A stretch of DNA of 64,000 nucleotides from Herpetosiphon aurantiacus DSM 785. GTDB lineage: Bacteria > Chloroflexota > Chloroflexia > Chloroflexales > Herpetosiphonaceae. A model generated the notes under the pieces. It did no database searches. It saw only the letters and a program-made list of their open reading frames with translations, and was not told the DNA's origin. This document shows positions 26,859 to 34,101 of the stretch, piece after piece. The position numbers were made by a program, and so were the translations under genes. Within the stretch, counting starts at the first letter, position 1. Each line of letters starts with the position of its first letter. Location of the stretch: positions 4,541,199 to 4,605,198 of the forward strand of contig CP000875.1 of NCBI GenBank assembly GCA_000018565.1, written 5' to 3'.

Positions 26859-27335
26859 TCACTCCCAATCGTCGTGGTCGGGGTCGTGGTAGCGCGGGCG
26901 GGGCGGCGCAATCGAGCTCATATAATCTTGCAGAATCAAAATCGCAGCTAATTCATCGACATGATCGCGATGTTTGCTTTTTTTGATGCCCATGGCTTCG
27001 AGCGAACGCTCAGCCTCAACGCTGGTAAAGCGCTCATCATACAAAGTAATCGGAATCTTGGTGCGTTTTTCCAGCCCACGACTGAAGGCTTGCACCGCTT
27101 TGGCCTGTGCCCCAACCTCGCCACGCAAGGTCAAAGGCAAGCCAATCACAACTTCAACCACCTCGTGCTCAGTAATCATGTGCAAAAGCTGAGCATAGGC
27201 TTTATCAGTTGGCTGTGCTGGCAAGGTCGGCTGGCCGCTAGCAATAATTCGGTCGGGGTCGCACATAGCCACCCCGATTCGTTTGTTGCCAACATCCAAA
27301 GCGATGATTCGGCCATGGGTTGGACGCTCACTCAT
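26859..27335 (-). CDS. ruvX: RuvX/YqgF family putative Holliday-junction resolvase
   Basis: A 158-residue RNase H-fold protein. The N-terminus IIALDVGNKRIGVAMCDP supplies the first catalytic Asp, VVIGLPLTLRGEVG the middle strand with the nucleotide-type loop, and LYDERFTSVEAER plus HRDHVDELAAILILQDYM the last acidic residues. The family acts in Holliday-junction processing and, in E. coli, in pre-16S rRNA maturation. Its ATG overlaps the stop of the upstream gene by four bases (ATGA), so the two are coupled. The basic/acidic C-terminal tail is extra to the fold. Confidence 0.93.
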   Translation of the reverse strand: MSERPTHGRIIALDVGNKRIGVAMCDPDRIIASGQPTLPAQPTDKAYAQLLHMITEHEVVEVVIGLPLTLRGEVGAQAKAVQAFSRGLEKRTKIPITLYDERFTSVEAERSLEAMGIKKSKHRDHVDELAAILILQDYMSSIAPPRPRYHDPDHDDWE

Positions 27336-29299
27336 TCCTGCACCTGAATATTAATTTCGGCTGGATCAACGGGCAAGCGCTCAACTTCGGGCACTGACAC
27401 AATATCGCCAATCAAGCCACTTTCGCGCAAAGCTTCCAACTGCACCAAGGCTTCGGCTGGGGTTAGGCCTTTGATGCTATCAGCGATTTTCAGTTTAGTG
27501 CTATCGGGTAAACCAACTGCGGTTTTGGGAGCAACTTCGACCGTTGCCAGCAACAAACTAGCACCTGAATCATCCAAGCGCACTTGGCTACGCACAATGC
27601 TGGTGGTATCGGTACTGAATGATGGGTCTTTGATCCGCAAGGCATTCGGCAAAGCTCGATTCAACTGCTCGGCAAAACTGCCACGCACCGCCAAGCCTTG
27701 GAAATTCGCTGTTACGACCAACTCAAAACCGCCATCGGTTTCGGGCACTGGTCGGGTTTGAATATCGTAAAGCGAAGGGTCTTGAGTCAAGGCATCGACA
27801 TTCGGCAAAAATTCAACATCAGCCAAGACTTCGCCTTCTTGTAGCACGGTTTGCATTTGAGCCGGAATCGCACTGCGGAATTGGGCTACTGCTTGGGGCA
27901 GTAACGGCATCCAATCGCTTTCGACTGGCAATTTTAGCAGCGCAGTTGTGCCGCCTTGAATTGGCTCAGGATTGATCGAAAAGAGTGCACCTTCATAGCC
28001 TTCAATCGTCCAAACCGGATCTTGGCTAGCAGGCATGTTGTAGCGCGTACCACCAGCACTGGCCACGATTTGCAATGAACCAACCCCGCTGACAATTCCG
28101 GCAAAGTTGCCTGTTGCGGCAGGAATCGTCGTTTCGGCTTGGGTCAAAAAGATAATTTCTTCGCCAGCCGAGTTGAGCACTCGAACCCGCGTATTAGCAG
28201 GAATTGGGTAGGCCTGGGTGTTGCGGTTATAAACTTCGAGGATGCCAGTCGCCGCTTGATCAGGTTGTTCGGTTGCCGTAATGACCGTACCACGCACGCT
28301 CACCGAAATTGGCACGTTGATCAAGCGCCCTTGAATTGCCGCCGAGCTTGGTTCGCTAATTGGGTCGGCTTGATAGTTGAGCCGCACATCTTCGTAGGTT
28401 TGGCCGCCAGAGGTTGGAGCTGGTCGCACCACCACGGTTACGCCGCTGGCCAATTTATTGCCAAACAGCAGCCATAACAACGCGATAATTGCAATCGCCC
28501 CTAGAATAACCATACCCCACAAGGGATAATTGCGTTTGGGCGCGGTTTGTTGTTTGAGTTCAGCCTTTTCGTCAGCGCGTTTTTGCTCGGCCCGAGCACG
28601 GCGAGCTTTGGCATCTTGGCGATGCATATCATCGCTAGTTAATTCAATATCCTCGGGGCGAATCCGTGGGCGAGCTGGCGCAGCGCTGGCCGTATCGCCA
28701 CTCAGCGCATCAGAAAGATCGTTGAATGAATCAAAATCCCAGCTATCGTTGCCACGCGCTTGTTCATGTTGGCGCAAGCCAGTTTCGCCAGCAGTCGAAG
28801 CCACTGAAAGGCTATCAAGGGCATCAGCCCAATCGTCGATTTCGCTGCGGGCTGGTTGACTGGGGGCTGCCGTTGGAATCGGCTTGCTAATGCTGGGGCT
28901 GGTTTGCAACCGATCGGTGGTGGAAGCAGAGGGCAACCCTTCCAGCGAAGCCAAAAAATCTTCTTCAGGGCTAGCTGGTGCAACTGGTTTAGCTGGAGCT
29001 GGCGGAGCAGCAGGCGCTTTGGTTGAAACAACGGCTGGCTCAATTTCGACCACCATCATCTGGCAAGTCAAAGCCGCCTTAACCACCTTGGGATCGCTGG
29101 TATAGAGCGTTAACTCAATGCCCTCGCGATTGGCAGTTTCGCGCAAGCGATCACAGGTTTTACGGCTTTGTAACGAAATCGAGCCTTCGGGCATGAAAAT
29201 ATCAACATGCTCTGCTTTGGCATTGCGCACTTGCTGAATAATGCTATCAATTGGATCAGCAAGGGCAATCGTGATCAGTTCAGTTTTGCCAGTTGTCAT
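27332..29299 (-). CDS. Membrane protein with Rossmann-like N-domain and baseplate-J-like outer domain
   Basis: A 655-residue protein with one membrane helix (about 259-280). The cytosolic part has a Rossmann-like domain (1-90: VRNAKAEHVDIFMPEGS, then LTLYTSDPKVVKAA), a Pro/Ala linker and an acidic/basic coiled stretch. The outer part (about 290-655) carries baseplate-J/gp47-like motifs: NTQAYPIPANTRVRVLNSAG, TIPAATGNFAGIVSGVG and a terminal EALVQLEALRESGLIGDI. No other phage-tail gene is present. The start at 29299 has a GGGGGC upstream and a better N-terminus than ATG 29365. Coupled to ruvX. Function unknown; the same architecture is familiar in Chloroflexota. Confidence 0.8.
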   Translation of the reverse strand: MTTGKTELITIALADPIDSIIQQVRNAKAEHVDIFMPEGSISLQSRKTCDRLRETANREGIELTLYTSDPKVVKAALTCQMMVVEIEPAVVSTKAPAAPPAPAKPVAPASPEEDFLASLEGLPSASTTDRLQTSPSISKPIPTAAPSQPARSEIDDWADALDSLSVASTAGETGLRQHEQARGNDSWDFDSFNDLSDALSGDTASAAPARPRIRPEDIELTSDDMHRQDAKARRARAEQKRADEKAELKQQTAPKRNYPLWGMVILGAIAIIALLWLLFGNKLASGVTVVVRPAPTSGGQTYEDVRLNYQADPISEPSSAAIQGRLINVPISVSVRGTVITATEQPDQAATGILEVYNRNTQAYPIPANTRVRVLNSAGEEIIFLTQAETTIPAATGNFAGIVSGVGSLQIVASAGGTRYNMPASQDPVWTIEGYEGALFSINPEPIQGGTTALLKLPVESDWMPLLPQAVAQFRSAIPAQMQTVLQEGEVLADVEFLPNVDALTQDPSLYDIQTRPVPETDGGFELVVTANFQGLAVRGSFAEQLNRALPNALRIKDPSFSTDTTSIVRSQVRLDDSGASLLLATVEVAPKTAVGLPDSTKLKIADSIKGLTPAEALVQLEALRESGLIGDIVSVPEVERLPVDPAEINIQVQE

Positions 29300-29467
29300 T
29301 GGGTTGCCCCCAAAGCTTTCAGAATGAACACACATCGGATGCTGTGGTGTTGGCAGGATCGGCAATATTGTACAACGATCTTATCCTGATGAGGGCAACA
29401 CCACAGTTTGGTCCCTCATTGGGCGATTGGGGTAAGCTAAGAGTGGGTCATCACCCTTAGCCCATTC

Positions 29468-29735: not shown

Positions 29736-32405
29736 TTACAGCAAACCGTTGGCTTCGGCTAAGGCTTGATCAAGCGCAGCCGCATCGCGACCGCCAGCTT
29801 GGGCAAAATCGGCGCGACCGCCACCACCACCGCCAACTTTGGCAGCCAAGGCTTTGACTAAATTGCCAGCATGCCGACCAGCTTTGACTTGATCAGCGGT
29901 TGCAGCGGCGAGCAGCAAAGGCTTGCCATCGATTACCGTGCCGAGGATCACCACGCCACTGCCAATTTTATCGCGTAGTTGTTCGCCCAAACGGCGGAAG
30001 CTATCAGCATCGCTGGCTTCAACGCGGGCGACCACCAATGGCGTGCCAGCTTGCTCAATTTTTTGGGCGAGCAAGCTATCGACTTGACCAGCAGCAATTT
30101 CGCCGCGCAAGCGTTCGATTTCGTCGCGGCGAGCTTTTTGGTCGAGCAACAGGGCATCGAGTTTTTCTTCAACTTTGCCTGGTTGTGCACCCAGTTTATC
30201 GCCGAGCGTGCGAATCAATTGGGCTTGTTGGCTGACCCATTCAGCAGCAGCGCGGCCAGTTACTGCCTCGATCCGCCGCACACCTGAGGCAACCGAGCCT
30301 TCGCTGACGATTTTGAAGAAGCCAATTTCGCCAGTGCGGGCAACGTGAACACCACCGCAAAGCTCGCGTGAGCATACTGGCGCTTCGCTGTTGGTATGGA
30401 TGTGATCACTTGCATTGCCACAACCAACGGTGACCACCCGCACCACATCGCCATATTTTTCGCCAAACAAGGCCATTGCGCCCAATTCGCGGGCTTGCGG
30501 CAAGGCCATTTCGGCAGCCTCAACCTTGCTATCAGCGCGAATCCAGGCATTAACTTGATCTTCGATTTGCTGGAGTTGTTCGCTGCTCAAGCCTTTTTGG
30601 TTGTTGAAGTCGAAGCGCAAGCGTTCGGGTGCAACCAACGAGCCTTTTTGCTCAGCGTGATCGCCAAGCGTATCGCGCAAGGCTCGGTGCAGCAAGTGGG
30701 TTGCTGTATGATTACGCACAATATCGCGGCGACGCGCTGCATCAACCGTTACGGTGACTTGCTCGCCAAGGCTCACGCTGCCTTTGCTGACTTTGCCACG
30801 ATGGACAAATACACCAGGCACGGGCTTTTGCACATCGTCGATCACGATGGTGCCATGTGGCCCGACCAACACACCACTATCGCCCATTTGGCCGCCGCTT
30901 TCGGCATAGCAGGGCGTGCGATCAAGCACAAAGGCCACTTCTTGACCACGTTGAACCGTGCCAAGCTCCTCGCCATCGAATTCGAGCGCCAAAACATGAC
31001 CCCAGCTTTCCAGCTCGTTGTAGCCAGTAAAGCTAGTTGGAGCCAAATTACGCTCAGCCCAGCGTTCGGTCACTGCACCTTTTTTGAATTGAGCAGCACC
31101 ACGGCCTCGAGCGCGTTGAGCCTCAAGTTCAGCCTCATAGCCCGCCAAATCAACCGTCAAACCACGTTCAGCCACGATTCGTTCGGTCAAGTCGAGCGGA
31201 AAGCCATAGGTATCGTAGAGCTTGAAGGCATCAGCACCGCTGAAAACGGCTTTGTCGGCTTGATTGGGCAGCATCGCTTCGAGTTGGCGCAAACCACCAG
31301 CCAAAGTTTTGTTGAAGCGTTCTTCTTCGCCCGTCACAACCTCGGCAATATAGGCTTGTTTGCTGCGCAACTCAGGGTAGGCAGCACCCATCATATCGAT
31401 CACAGTTGCGATCGTTTCGGCCAAAAACGGCGCTTTGAAGCCGATCGTTTGGCCAAAATAGGCCGCCCGCCGCACCAACCGCCGCAACACATACGAACGA
31501 CCTTCGTTACCAGGCCGCAAGCCATCGGCAATCATAAAAGCGATCGAGCGGCTATGGTCGGCTACAACATGATAAGCCGAGCTATTGGCTTGATAATGGT
31601 CGCTGCCAGTGCCCAGCAATTCCATCACCGTGTGGATAATTGGCGTGAACAAGTCGGTTTCATACGAGCGAAACACGCCTTGCTTAACAATTGCCAAGCG
31701 TTCGAGGCTCATGCCTGTGTCGATTGATGGCTTGGGGAGCAGCGTCAATACACCGTTTTCATCACGGTTGTATTGCATAAACACCAAGTTCCAAATTTCC
31801 ATATAGGTGTCATCTTCAGAGTTAACACCTTCAGGCACTTGGTTATCAGGATCATCGCCGATGTAATAATGAATTTCTGAGCATGGCCCGCGTGGCCCGA
31901 CATCACCTGCCGACCACAAATTATCTTTGGCATCGAAGCGCAAAATCCGCTCGGCAGGCATATAGGCCAGCCATAAATCATGAGCTTCTTCGTCGGCAGG
32001 AATTTGCTCATCGCCTTCGTAAATGCTGACCCACATGCGTTTGGGATCAAGCCCAATTTCTTGGGTCAGAAACTCCCAGGCAAAGCGGATGGCATCTTTT
32101 TTGAAATAATCGCCAAACGAAAAATTGCCCAGCATCTCAAAAAAGGTGTGGTGGCGCGGCGATGGCCCAACATTTTCAAGGTCGTTTTGCTTGCCGGAGA
32201 TGCGCAAACATTTTTGCGATGAAACTGCGCGGCTGTAGGGACGGCTTTCGCGACCTAAAAAGACATCGTTAAACTGAACCATCCCAGCCACTGTAAACAA
32301 CAGGGTGGGATTATCGGCAGGAATCAGCGAGCTACTTGGCACGACGGCGTGCCCTTGCCGCGCAAAGTAGTCTAAGAAACGCTGCCGTAGCTCTGAACCT
32401 TTCAT
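29736..32405 (-). CDS. alaS: Alanyl-tRNA synthetase
   Basis: An 889-residue full-length AlaRS. The class II catalytic domain opens with LRQRFLDYFARQGHAVVPSS and holds motif 2 around QKCLRISGKQNDLENVG and HHTFFEMLGNFSFGDYFK. The central editing domain has HTATHLLHRAL and the zinc-site CGGVHV. The C-terminal C-Ala domain ends with the Gly-rich VGGGGGGRADFAQAGG. It charges tRNA-Ala and clears mischarged Ser/Gly. Start ATG 32405 follows GAGGTTTCC. Monocistronic, with word repeats both upstream and downstream. Confidence 0.97.
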   Translation of the reverse strand: MKGSELRQRFLDYFARQGHAVVPSSSLIPADNPTLLFTVAGMVQFNDVFLGRESRPYSRAVSSQKCLRISGKQNDLENVGPSPRHHTFFEMLGNFSFGDYFKKDAIRFAWEFLTQEIGLDPKRMWVSIYEGDEQIPADEEAHDLWLAYMPAERILRFDAKDNLWSAGDVGPRGPCSEIHYYIGDDPDNQVPEGVNSEDDTYMEIWNLVFMQYNRDENGVLTLLPKPSIDTGMSLERLAIVKQGVFRSYETDLFTPIIHTVMELLGTGSDHYQANSSAYHVVADHSRSIAFMIADGLRPGNEGRSYVLRRLVRRAAYFGQTIGFKAPFLAETIATVIDMMGAAYPELRSKQAYIAEVVTGEEERFNKTLAGGLRQLEAMLPNQADKAVFSGADAFKLYDTYGFPLDLTERIVAERGLTVDLAGYEAELEAQRARGRGAAQFKKGAVTERWAERNLAPTSFTGYNELESWGHVLALEFDGEELGTVQRGQEVAFVLDRTPCYAESGGQMGDSGVLVGPHGTIVIDDVQKPVPGVFVHRGKVSKGSVSLGEQVTVTVDAARRRDIVRNHTATHLLHRALRDTLGDHAEQKGSLVAPERLRFDFNNQKGLSSEQLQQIEDQVNAWIRADSKVEAAEMALPQARELGAMALFGEKYGDVVRVVTVGCGNASDHIHTNSEAPVCSRELCGGVHVARTGEIGFFKIVSEGSVASGVRRIEAVTGRAAAEWVSQQAQLIRTLGDKLGAQPGKVEEKLDALLLDQKARRDEIERLRGEIAAGQVDSLLAQKIEQAGTPLVVARVEASDADSFRRLGEQLRDKIGSGVVILGTVIDGKPLLLAAATADQVKAGRHAGNLVKALAAKVGGGGGGRADFAQAGGRDAAALDQALAEANGLL

Positions 32406-32424: not shown

Positions 32425-32509
32425 TAAGAACATAGAACAAAGCGCATAGAACAAAGCCAATTATCGTGCTCAAGCCTTTAATGTTCTATGTTCTATGCTC
32501 TGTGCTCTC
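32425..32509. repeat. Inverted pair of AACATAGAGCATA words
   Basis: AAGAACATAGAACAAAGCGC (from 32427) faces its approximate inverse TGTTCTATGTTCTATGCTCT (from 32482) across a core of about 25 bases, so the pair can fold. It lies in the upstream region of alaS. Confidence 0.75.
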
Positions 32510-32544: not shown

Positions 32545-33348
32545 TCAGGTTAGGCTTAATTCAAACAAACTATAGGCTTCGTTGGTATTACGCCAGTTGA
32601 GTTGGGTGATTAATTGAGCTTGCCGACTGCCCCGCCAAACTGGAGTTAATAAATTTTCGCATTCGGGCAGGGTACGAGCATGAGCCAAAAGCCGGGTTTG
32701 GGCGGCCAAATCACCCTCAATTTGGGCAATAAAGCCATCGTGTTCGCAAATCATCCAACCACTGCCATCCGCCAGAACATACAATTCTTGGCGCTCGGCA
32801 CAGCGTTCAAGCTCAGCTTGATCGAGGTTGCGCACCGTCCACTGATAGACATAGCGACCCGCTTGCTCCTGCAAATTCGCCGCTTGGCTCAGATCAACCA
32901 AACGTGGGTCGGGCAAAACTTCGGCTTGCGCAGCAGGCAGATCATTCAATTCGTACCACTCAATAAAGCCTACATTGGCAAAATTGAGTTTTTCGGCCAT
33001 CGAATGCATGCGCTGATTACTCTGCTCGGTCATATAGCCAAGCGTAGCTGCGCTCCAACTTTTGGCCCAAGCAATCGAATAGTCGATCAATTCGCGACCC
33101 AAACCTTGGCCTTGAAGCTCAGGATGAATGCGTAAACCACCAAACCAAGCCTGAGTTGGCGAGAGCACGCGCAGGCGCAGCACCACGACTGGAACTTGCC
33201 AACCTGCCATCTCGCCAACATACAAATGGCCTTGCGGCAACCAATATTCCCAAACATCGCCAATATAATCGGGCTGACCATTCCAGAGGGTGTTGCACCA
33301 AGCTACAATCGGCTCGCGATCGGCGAGAGTTGCTGGGCGCAACGTCAT
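32545..33348 (-). CDS. GNAT acetyltransferase, probably two-domain
   Basis: A 267-residue protein. The first GNAT domain (1-150) opens MTLRPATLADREPIVAWCN and has motif A FGGLRIHPELQGQGLGRELI. The remaining 115 residues look like a second, degenerate GNAT-like half without a visible CoA loop. Substrate unknown. The ATG at 33348 lies one base after the stop of the pseudo-GTPase gene (TAGAATG), so translation is coupled and the two proteins are likely partners. An ATG at 33390 would overlap that gene by 40 bases and is less likely. Confidence 0.82.
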   Translation of the reverse strand: MTLRPATLADREPIVAWCNTLWNGQPDYIGDVWEYWLPQGHLYVGEMAGWQVPVVVLRLRVLSPTQAWFGGLRIHPELQGQGLGRELIDYSIAWAKSWSAATLGYMTEQSNQRMHSMAEKLNFANVGFIEWYELNDLPAAQAEVLPDPRLVDLSQAANLQEQAGRYVYQWTVRNLDQAELERCAERQELYVLADGSGWMICEHDGFIAQIEGDLAAQTRLLAHARTLPECENLLTPVWRGSRQAQLITQLNWRNTNEAYSLFELSLT

Positions 33349-33349
33349 T

Positions 33350-34006
33350 CTATTTGAGATCGTCGTCGTCGTAGGCATGTAAATCATCAAACTCTATATC
33401 ATCAAGGTCAACAGCGCTGCCGTCGCTATCGAAGTCATCAAGGTCAAAGCCAATCCCAGCCAAGCCCGAATCTTCTTCGAGACCACTGGTGAGCGTATGC
33501 AAAGCCCGTTGCAACGTTGTAGCATTTTCAGCTGCAAAATACGAGAGGCTATTAGCATTCAAACGGGCTTGCTGACCATCATCAAGTGGGCTGGCTCCCA
33601 GCAAAATCACGGGCATCGAGGCAATCGTTTTGCCGTAGGTGCTCAAAAAGCGTTCGAGTTCGCGCTCAGCAAAAATTGATTGATCTTCACTTTCGAGATC
33701 AAGCAGCAAAATCACGCCATCGGTATTATGCAACACATGCTGGCGATCAGCGGCAGTCGATCCAGCCGAACGCAAGGTATGCAACATATAAACAGGCTTG
33801 ATATCCCCAAGGGCAGCATTTGCAGGACGGTAGCGAGCTACGAGGGTTGGTTCTTCGGCTGGCGGGGTATCCCACGTTACTTCGCGTTCAGCTAATGGAA
33901 TCGCTGTAACCAATTGGGCGGCTAGCTTCACTGCATTGCGGGTAGGTGGGCCAAACAACACGACCTTGCAATGCCATTCATTTGTCTCATGATTGAGCCG
34001 TGACAT
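33350..34006 (-). CDS. MglA-like pseudo-GTPase with acidic C-terminal tail
   Basis: A 218-residue protein that follows the MglA/Ras-like pattern: CKVVLFGPPTRNAVKLAAQL at the P-loop, VYMLHTLRSAG at the G3 position, NTDGVILLLDLES, and MPVILLGASPLD at G4. Every nucleotide-binding motif is altered: the P-loop GKT is NAV, the TVPGQ-type G3 is TLRSA, and NKxD is GASP. It therefore probably does not bind GTP normally. The last 40 residues are mostly Asp/Glu. Start ATG 34006 has GGAGGA 5 bases upstream. The GNAT gene follows in a coupled arrangement. The family assignment is from pattern only. Confidence 0.65.
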   Translation of the reverse strand: MSRLNHETNEWHCKVVLFGPPTRNAVKLAAQLVTAIPLAEREVTWDTPPAEEPTLVARYRPANAALGDIKPVYMLHTLRSAGSTAADRQHVLHNTDGVILLLDLESEDQSIFAERELERFLSTYGKTIASMPVILLGASPLDDGQQARLNANSLSYFAAENATTLQRALHTLTSGLEEDSGLAGIGFDLDDFDSDGSAVDLDDIEFDDLHAYDDDDLK

Positions 34007-34101
34007 AGCTCCTCCGAAATTCCACTGCAAAAACGATGGGCAGTCGCAAGGATTATAGCATTGTCTCGCAGATTAGCGCTAGCGTTTAATCACAACTCAA
34101 G

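Follow-up and report, generated by a model that had tools for sequence, protein, structure and literature searches.

The window analysed here is a 64,000-nucleotide stretch of the Herpetosiphon aurantiacus DSM 785 genome (contig CP000875.1, positions 4,541,199 to 4,605,198; the genome comprises 6,785,430 bases in 3 contigs), and our subject is a pair of overlapping genes on its minus strand. The upstream gene encodes a 218-residue protein that descends from the small G protein MglA and is called the pseudo-GTPase below; the downstream gene encodes a tandem-type GNAT acetyltransferase. A preliminary description of the window had given the correct open reading frame, coordinates, and strand for the 218-residue protein. 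The window's own locus is named L001, and comparisons across eight loci use L001 and L003 to L009. The two genes and their parts are as follows.

33350..34006, minus strand: MglA-derived pseudo-GTPase, 218 residues plus stop (orthologues in 8 genomes; MglA profile and fold matches)
33464..34006, minus strand: G-domain part, residues 1 to 181 (predicted strand and helix order as in a G domain; residues 2 to 182 align to MglA chains)
33926..33952, minus strand: degenerate G1/P-loop GPPTRNAVK, residues 19 to 27 (alignment with 24 MglA rows)
33845..33847, minus strand: T54, the G2 threonine and sole G-motif residue retained (T in 8/8 loci)
33764..33778, minus strand: degenerate G3, TLRSA in place of TVPGQ, residues 77 to 81 (R79 and A81 in 8/8)
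33587..33598, minus strand: degenerate G4, GASP in place of NKxD, residues 137 to 140 (read from alignments beside strand 5)
33353..33463, minus strand: acidic C-terminal tail, residues 182 to 218, with the conserved end DD[IV]EFDDLHAYDDD (pLDDT below 50 over most of it)
32545..33387, minus strand: tandem-type GNAT acetyltransferase, 280 residues from a conserved ATG at 33387, plus stop (PF00583; predicted fold; start kept in 8/8)
33350..33387, minus strand: 38 bases shared by both reading frames (conserved start; lowest synonymous variation)

Descent from MglA and the nucleotide-binding motifs

When a profile of the eight orthologues was compared with 177,635 PDB sequences, six matches were obtained at an E-value of ≤10. 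The top four (E 0.0023 to 0.0053) are MglA proteins from Thermus and Myxococcus, and below them stand Arf1 (E 0.37) and then Sar1b (E 1.9). Our first search had found matches in 48 of 60 genomes at E ≤0.1, eight of them in the family Herpetosiphonaceae and the rest at E ≥1.4e-5 and mostly MglA-like by position; the strongest match outside the family, L010, has an inner stop. Twenty-one of the non-family matches were translated to give a set of Chloroflexota MglA proteins. Against this set, hhalign returned a probability of 96.6% and a score of 70.2 over pseudo-GTPase residues 1 to 136, compared with scores of ≤20.9 and probabilities of ≤2.0% in 31 controls (30 column-shuffled, one reversed). 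Searches within the window's own genome were reciprocal between the pseudo-GTPase and the true MglA, the MglA query recovering the pseudo-GTPase gene at E 0.0018.

The predicted structure points the same way. In an AlphaFold model made from an alignment of 6 rows and no templates (mean pLDDT 58.5, pTM 0.59), strands and helices are ordered as in a G domain. The first 11 Foldseek matches of this model are MglA, and so are the first 11 VIA-align entries (Z 16.1 to 18.5, root-mean-square deviation 2.9 to 3.4, 159 to 180 residues aligned), with Ypt7 as runner-up at Z 15.0. Sequence and fold thus agree that the 218-residue protein descends from MglA, the confidence of the model being modest. Pfam single-sequence scans gave no match for the pseudo-GTPases (0/8 members). 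NCBIfam returned a single match, to a carnitine-CoA ligase model (E 0.0065; 15.1 bits, the cut-off being 651), which we attribute to chance, given that it spans 86 residues and is at odds with the fold.

G1, G3, and G4 are all degenerate. The P-loop lysine and threonine, present in 24/24 MglA rows, are replaced by A or G and by V or L in the eight pseudo-GTPases, none of which contains GxxxxGK[ST]. TVPGQ has become [TA][LF]R[ST]A (TVPGQ in 0/8), and the intrinsic arginine that precedes the G2 threonine in 23 of the 24 MglA rows is P, S, or A in every pseudo-GTPase (arginine in 0/8). The [NT]KxD of G4 is lost as well and reads GASP in the window and STTP and SNAP in the other two genera; G4 was located by the preceding strand 5, and MAFFT puts a gap at this position. 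The losses are common to all three genera carrying the pseudo-GTPase; the one survivor is T54, the G2 threonine, present in 8/8. The definition of the group 1 MglA G3 and arginine features was taken from PMC4316618. Loss of G4 alone would be insufficient evidence, because the G4 lysine is frequently missing from group 2 and group 3 MglA proteins, and GTPase activity has been measured for one of these (PMC4316618). In the pseudo-GTPase, G1 and G3 are gone besides G4, and we infer from these motifs that nucleotide binding has probably been lost.

Much of the preliminary description is borne out by these results: the MglA/Ras pattern (hhalign score 70.2 against ≤20.9 in the controls), the match to a G domain, with MglA ranking first, and the replacement of GKT by NAV, TVPGQ by TLRSA, and NKxD by GASP. 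Its statement that all nucleotide motifs are lost holds for G1, G3, and G4 but goes too far for G2, whose threonine T54 is retained in all eight loci.

Each genus has its own P-loop sequence (GPPTRNAVK, GPPTIGAVK, and APPSDTGLA), with 2 of 9 columns invariant, while the invariant columns number 8/9 in strand 2, 7/8 in strand 4, and 7/11 in helix 2. Among the MglA rows, the nucleotide-pocket columns are nearly fixed. The surface segments kept in the pseudo-GTPases are TLVARY[RK]PA in strand 2, DRQH.L.N in helix 2, and ERELER in helix 3. A variable P-loop together with conserved strand 2, helix 2, and helix 3 is as expected for a binding module.

The window genome also encodes a second divergent MglA homologue (L063, 1489-2013; G000:C1:1151390-1151884), which is 33% identical to the true MglA and has the P-loop GPTAAGKRT, ANHGA in place of TVPGQ, and an intact NKRD. 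In another Chloroflexota MglA (L072, 1486-2079), GKT is intact, TIPRQ stands for TVPGQ, and PP stands for the arginine-threonine pair; judging by these motifs, it is possibly a half-way degenerate MglA. Its gene lies between a purN-like and a purH-like gene.

Selection, the acidic tail, and the junction of the two genes

The pseudo-GTPase gene is not decaying and is under strong purifying selection. Its ratio of nonsynonymous to synonymous substitution rates (dN/dS) is 0.006 to 0.095, compared with 0.103 to 0.238 for the GNAT gene, and is the lower of the two in 15/15 pairs from six Herpetosiphon loci. In the same six genomes the true MglA shows no amino-acid change in 15/15 pairs (one row being cut to 167 codons), which places the constraint on the pseudo-GTPase below that on true MglA and above that on its GNAT partner.

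The C-terminal tail is as strongly acidic as first described, with 15 D/E and 1 K/R in residues 181 to 218, and the low confidence of the model there suggests that it is probably disordered. Because the GNAT start lies within tail codons, the conserved end of the tail serves two frames, and the start explains part of its conservation; D200, D202, D203, E205, and F206, which lie 5' of the GNAT start, are also invariant. A DNA pattern search for the tail peptide EFDDLHAY across the genome gave no match beyond the pseudo-GTPase gene.

The GNAT protein matches Pfam Acetyltransf_1 (PF00583) with 40.8 bits against a cut-off of 20.7. The acetyl-CoA motif of GNATs, [QR]xxGx[GA], is intact in the window protein as QGQGLG. 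Its structure model has a mean pLDDT of 86.1, and the long matches in the structure search include the tandem GNATs MAB_4324, 3ddd, and 3tt2 (Z 17.5 to 18.4); the 50 rows of that search mix tandem GNATs, N-myristoyltransferases, and single-domain GNATs at Z 15.8 to 18.4.

Where does the GNAT gene begin? The preliminary description placed its start one base after the pseudo-GTPase stop codon, and this has to be revised. That ATG (33346-33348) is present in two of the eight loci (L001 and L003). In L005 to L009, the stretch from the pseudo-GTPase stop to the conserved LRP of GNAT contains no ATG, GTG, or TTG (in L004 it has a TTG); in those five loci, therefore, the GNAT gene must start upstream. 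All eight loci share an ATG inside the pseudo-GTPase gene, 38 bases from the end of its stop codon (35 in L009). In the window it occupies 33385-33387, inside the codons for D207 and D208 of the pseudo-GTPase, and gives a protein of 280 residues. Synonymous variation across the six Herpetosiphon loci is 0.045 over codons 202 to 217, the lowest of 203 windows of codons, compared with 0.302 for the gene. Codons 39 to 57 (33836-33892; switch I and the start of strand 2) are nearly as low, at 0.050 to 0.053, with no known overlapping gene, so the low variation in the overlap is supporting and not decisive. The layout suggests coupled translation of the pseudo-GTPase and GNAT. The proposal of translational coupling thus gains from overlapping reading frames, a stronger arrangement than the one described, but the coupling itself is read from gene layout.

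Distribution of the pair and its neighbourhood

At E ≤1e-6, the pseudo-GTPase profile matched 8 of 158 genomes of the class, all from one family (8/9 family genomes and 0/149 others); the ninth family genome, which is 75% complete, has no match. Among 400 genomes of the phylum, 17 matched at E ≤1e-4. Seven of these belong to the family (E ≤1.3e-119), the other 10 lie at E 1.8e-6 to 7e-5, and the three of the latter that were read (L070, L072, and L073) have a GKT P-loop. A scan of a collection of 84,980 species with two conserved peptides, which reaches close relatives only and may omit the window's own species, returned five loci, all from Herpetosiphonaceae. The pseudo-GTPases of H. giganteus, H. 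geysericola, and H. llansteffanensis are 94 to 96% identical to that of the window.

The same tandem GNAT follows the pseudo-GTPase in 8/8 carrier genomes from three genera, so the pairing singled out by the preliminary description recurs wherever the pseudo-GTPase was found. At E ≤1e-12, the GNAT itself occurs in 16 of the 158 class genomes, eight with an adjacent pseudo-GTPase and eight without it, the latter in varied neighbourhoods; the pairing is thus specific to Herpetosiphonaceae. In three genomes from another family (L051, L052, and L053), a related GNAT lies in a different, repeated neighbourhood, where it is preceded by a chorismate-mutase-like and an enoyl-CoA-hydratase-like gene.

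The locus is held at the same place between species. The features that flank the pair in the window are the following.

34052..34060, minus strand: extended -10-like box TGCTATAAT, 5' of the pseudo-GTPase gene (TG[CG]TATAAT in 8/8 loci; putative promoter)
34009..34015, minus strand: Shine-Dalgarno-like GGAGGAG (from the sequence)
29736..32405, minus strand: presumed alaS (alanyl-tRNA synthetase), next downstream of the GNAT gene (same order in L034 and L036)

All eight loci retain the box TG[CG]TATAAT, 32 to 53 bases 5' of the pseudo-GTPase start, together with a GGAGG-type ribosome site, and the gene pair therefore has a predicted promoter-like site of its own. The ninth family genome has a sigma-factor-like gene ahead of alaS and carries its GNAT gene on a different contig. 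The gap between the GNAT gene and alaS contains a second TATAAT and an inverted repeat (32426-32495; AAGAACATAGAACA / TAGAACATAGAACA). Words similar to this repeat occur at 446 and 17278 (4 matches, compared with 0.01 expected), so that it is probably a dispersed palindromic element. A conserved protein of about 660 residues adjoins alaS (27332-29365; also L036, 10340-12325), with ruvX next in the window; the window copy has no Pfam match at E ≤0.001.

Possible function and comparison with known systems

Why do these bacteria keep an MglA relative with such degenerate nucleotide motifs? We hypothesize that the pseudo-GTPase serves the tandem GNAT as a regulatory or adaptor subunit that binds no nucleotide and is made together with the enzyme, a reading to which we give about an even chance. 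The MglA-type fold would no longer bind or hydrolyze nucleotide and would be retained as a protein-binding module; GNAT would be made together with it, from the start codon inside the pseudo-GTPase gene; and the G domain, through the faces of strand 2, helix 2, and helix 3, would act with the acidic tail to hold GNAT and/or bring substrate to it. A kept fold, a lost pocket, some kept surface elements and a kept tail, strong selection, and a gene link to one enzyme together point most readily to a scaffolding or regulatory subunit of GNAT. On this reading the two proteins would form a physical complex, in which the pseudo-GTPase would regulate or target acetylation.

Several points weigh against this reading. 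The overlap of the genes suggests coupled translation, not a complex, and eight other genomes have relatives of the GNAT but no pseudo-GTPase, which means that GNAT function does not generally depend on the partner. Charge-based docking of the tail on GNAT was considered and is unsupported: both proteins are acidic (isoelectric points of 4.40 for the pseudo-GTPase and 4.86 for GNAT), so the tail is no obvious electrostatic dock. Pocket columns are invariant at 9/30 positions compared with 73/151 in the rest of the domain, a difference that is not significant (P 0.07). The pseudo-GTPase model was built on just six rows, with the modest scores given above, and the protein could not be placed within MglA in a tree because its branch amounts to 5.9 changes per column.

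The alternatives were weighed against the same evidence. The pseudo-GTPase might act within the MglA/roadblock network, where a dead G protein could compete for MglA partners or scaffold them, with the GNAT gene as a mere transcriptional neighbour that overlaps it by chance. Its fold is closest to MglA, the GNAT is independent of it elsewhere, and its own genome encodes a true MglA, next to which lie two roadblock genes, and yields eight Robl_LC7 matches in all, six of them away from MglA. However, none of the eight lies in the window, the nearest being about 344 kb from the locus, and both the overlap and the pairing persist in three genera, above what a chance neighbourhood would lead one to expect; we consider this explanation unlikely. 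It seems to us distinctly unlikely that the protein is a bacterial counterpart of Rnd-type pseudo-GTPases, a dead MglA-family member that brings its own dedicated enzyme, the tandem acetyltransferase, to the polarity apparatus of live MglA and roadblock proteins in the gliding filament, so that a G-protein fold which no longer switches would aim acetylation. A role in gliding is possible by analogy, and H. aurantiacus does glide (PMC13104615). Nucleotide or another ligand could still be bound in an unusual manner, as GTP is bound without hydrolysis by the N-terminal pseudo-GTPase domain of p190RhoGAP. The existence of such cases (PMC10211241) and the invariance of T54 speak for this, but all eight members are without the P-loop lysine and threonine, the loop varies by genus, and G3 and G4 are gone. 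The loss goes far deeper than in group 2 and group 3 MglA, where the G4 lysine is often missing (PMC4316618), and we regard the idea as improbable.

The gene order and overlap, and an acidic tail that is probably disordered according to the model, would also suit a dedicated chaperone, made first and keeping GNAT folded or soluble. Related GNATs in eight other genomes do without such a partner, and the GNAT model is itself confident (mean pLDDT 86.1), which leaves a chaperone with little probability in our view. The gene layout also resembles that of toxin-antitoxin pairs, in which case an antitoxin gene upstream would overlap the gene of a GNAT toxin. Neither protein matched a PADLOC family at E ≤1 (PADLOC models only; no toxin-antitoxin library was searched), the GNAT is of the tandem and not the single-domain type, and the model of the pseudo-GTPase has no DNA-binding domain. 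Moreover, the locus stays at the same place from species to species, and purifying selection acts more strongly on the upstream protein than on the enzyme, so we think a toxin-antitoxin function very improbable.

Pseudo-GTPases are known mainly from eukaryotes. If the protein studied here is indeed a subunit of the GNAT, bacteria too have converted the Ras-like fold into a scaffold. A literature search limited to open-access articles found no report of an MglA-type pseudo-GTPase or of an MglA-GNAT pair, and the titles and abstract openings of open-access articles on pseudo-GTPases and bacteria contained no bacterial MglA-type case. With just two genes, the locus would make a small test case for this in a glider.

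Compared with group 1 MglA of Myxococcus xanthus and Thermus thermophilus, the pseudo-GTPase shares the N-terminal strand, the fold, the order of elements, the G2 threonine, and the sequence profile over residues 1 to 153. It differs in lacking GKT, TVPGQ, the intrinsic arginine, and NKxD, in having an acidic tail, in having no MglB gene alongside, and in its overlap with a GNAT gene. MglA is coupled to MglB in 390 of 449 cases (PMC4316618), and orphan MglA genes therefore exist. The GNAT resembles the tandem GNATs 3ddd, 3tt2, MAB_4324, and mycothiol synthase MshD in having two GNAT-like halves over nearly its full length and the catalytic motif in the N-terminal half; it differs in that its gene, in Herpetosiphonaceae, overlaps a pseudo-GTPase gene. 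PixB of Myxococcus xanthus, whose GNAT domain acts on gliding reversals (PMC8316039), is likewise a GNAT acetyltransferase in a glider that uses MglA, a likeness drawn from its description only. The closest parallels to the proposed function are eukaryotic pseudo-GTPases that serve as allosteric or scaffolding modules, such as Rnd proteins acting on p190RhoGAP, and CENP-M (PMC10211241). As in these proteins and in the p190RhoGAP domains, the G fold would have been kept after catalysis was lost; unlike them, the Herpetosiphon protein is bacterial, derived from MglA, and paired with an acetyltransferase, whose scaffold or regulator it may be.
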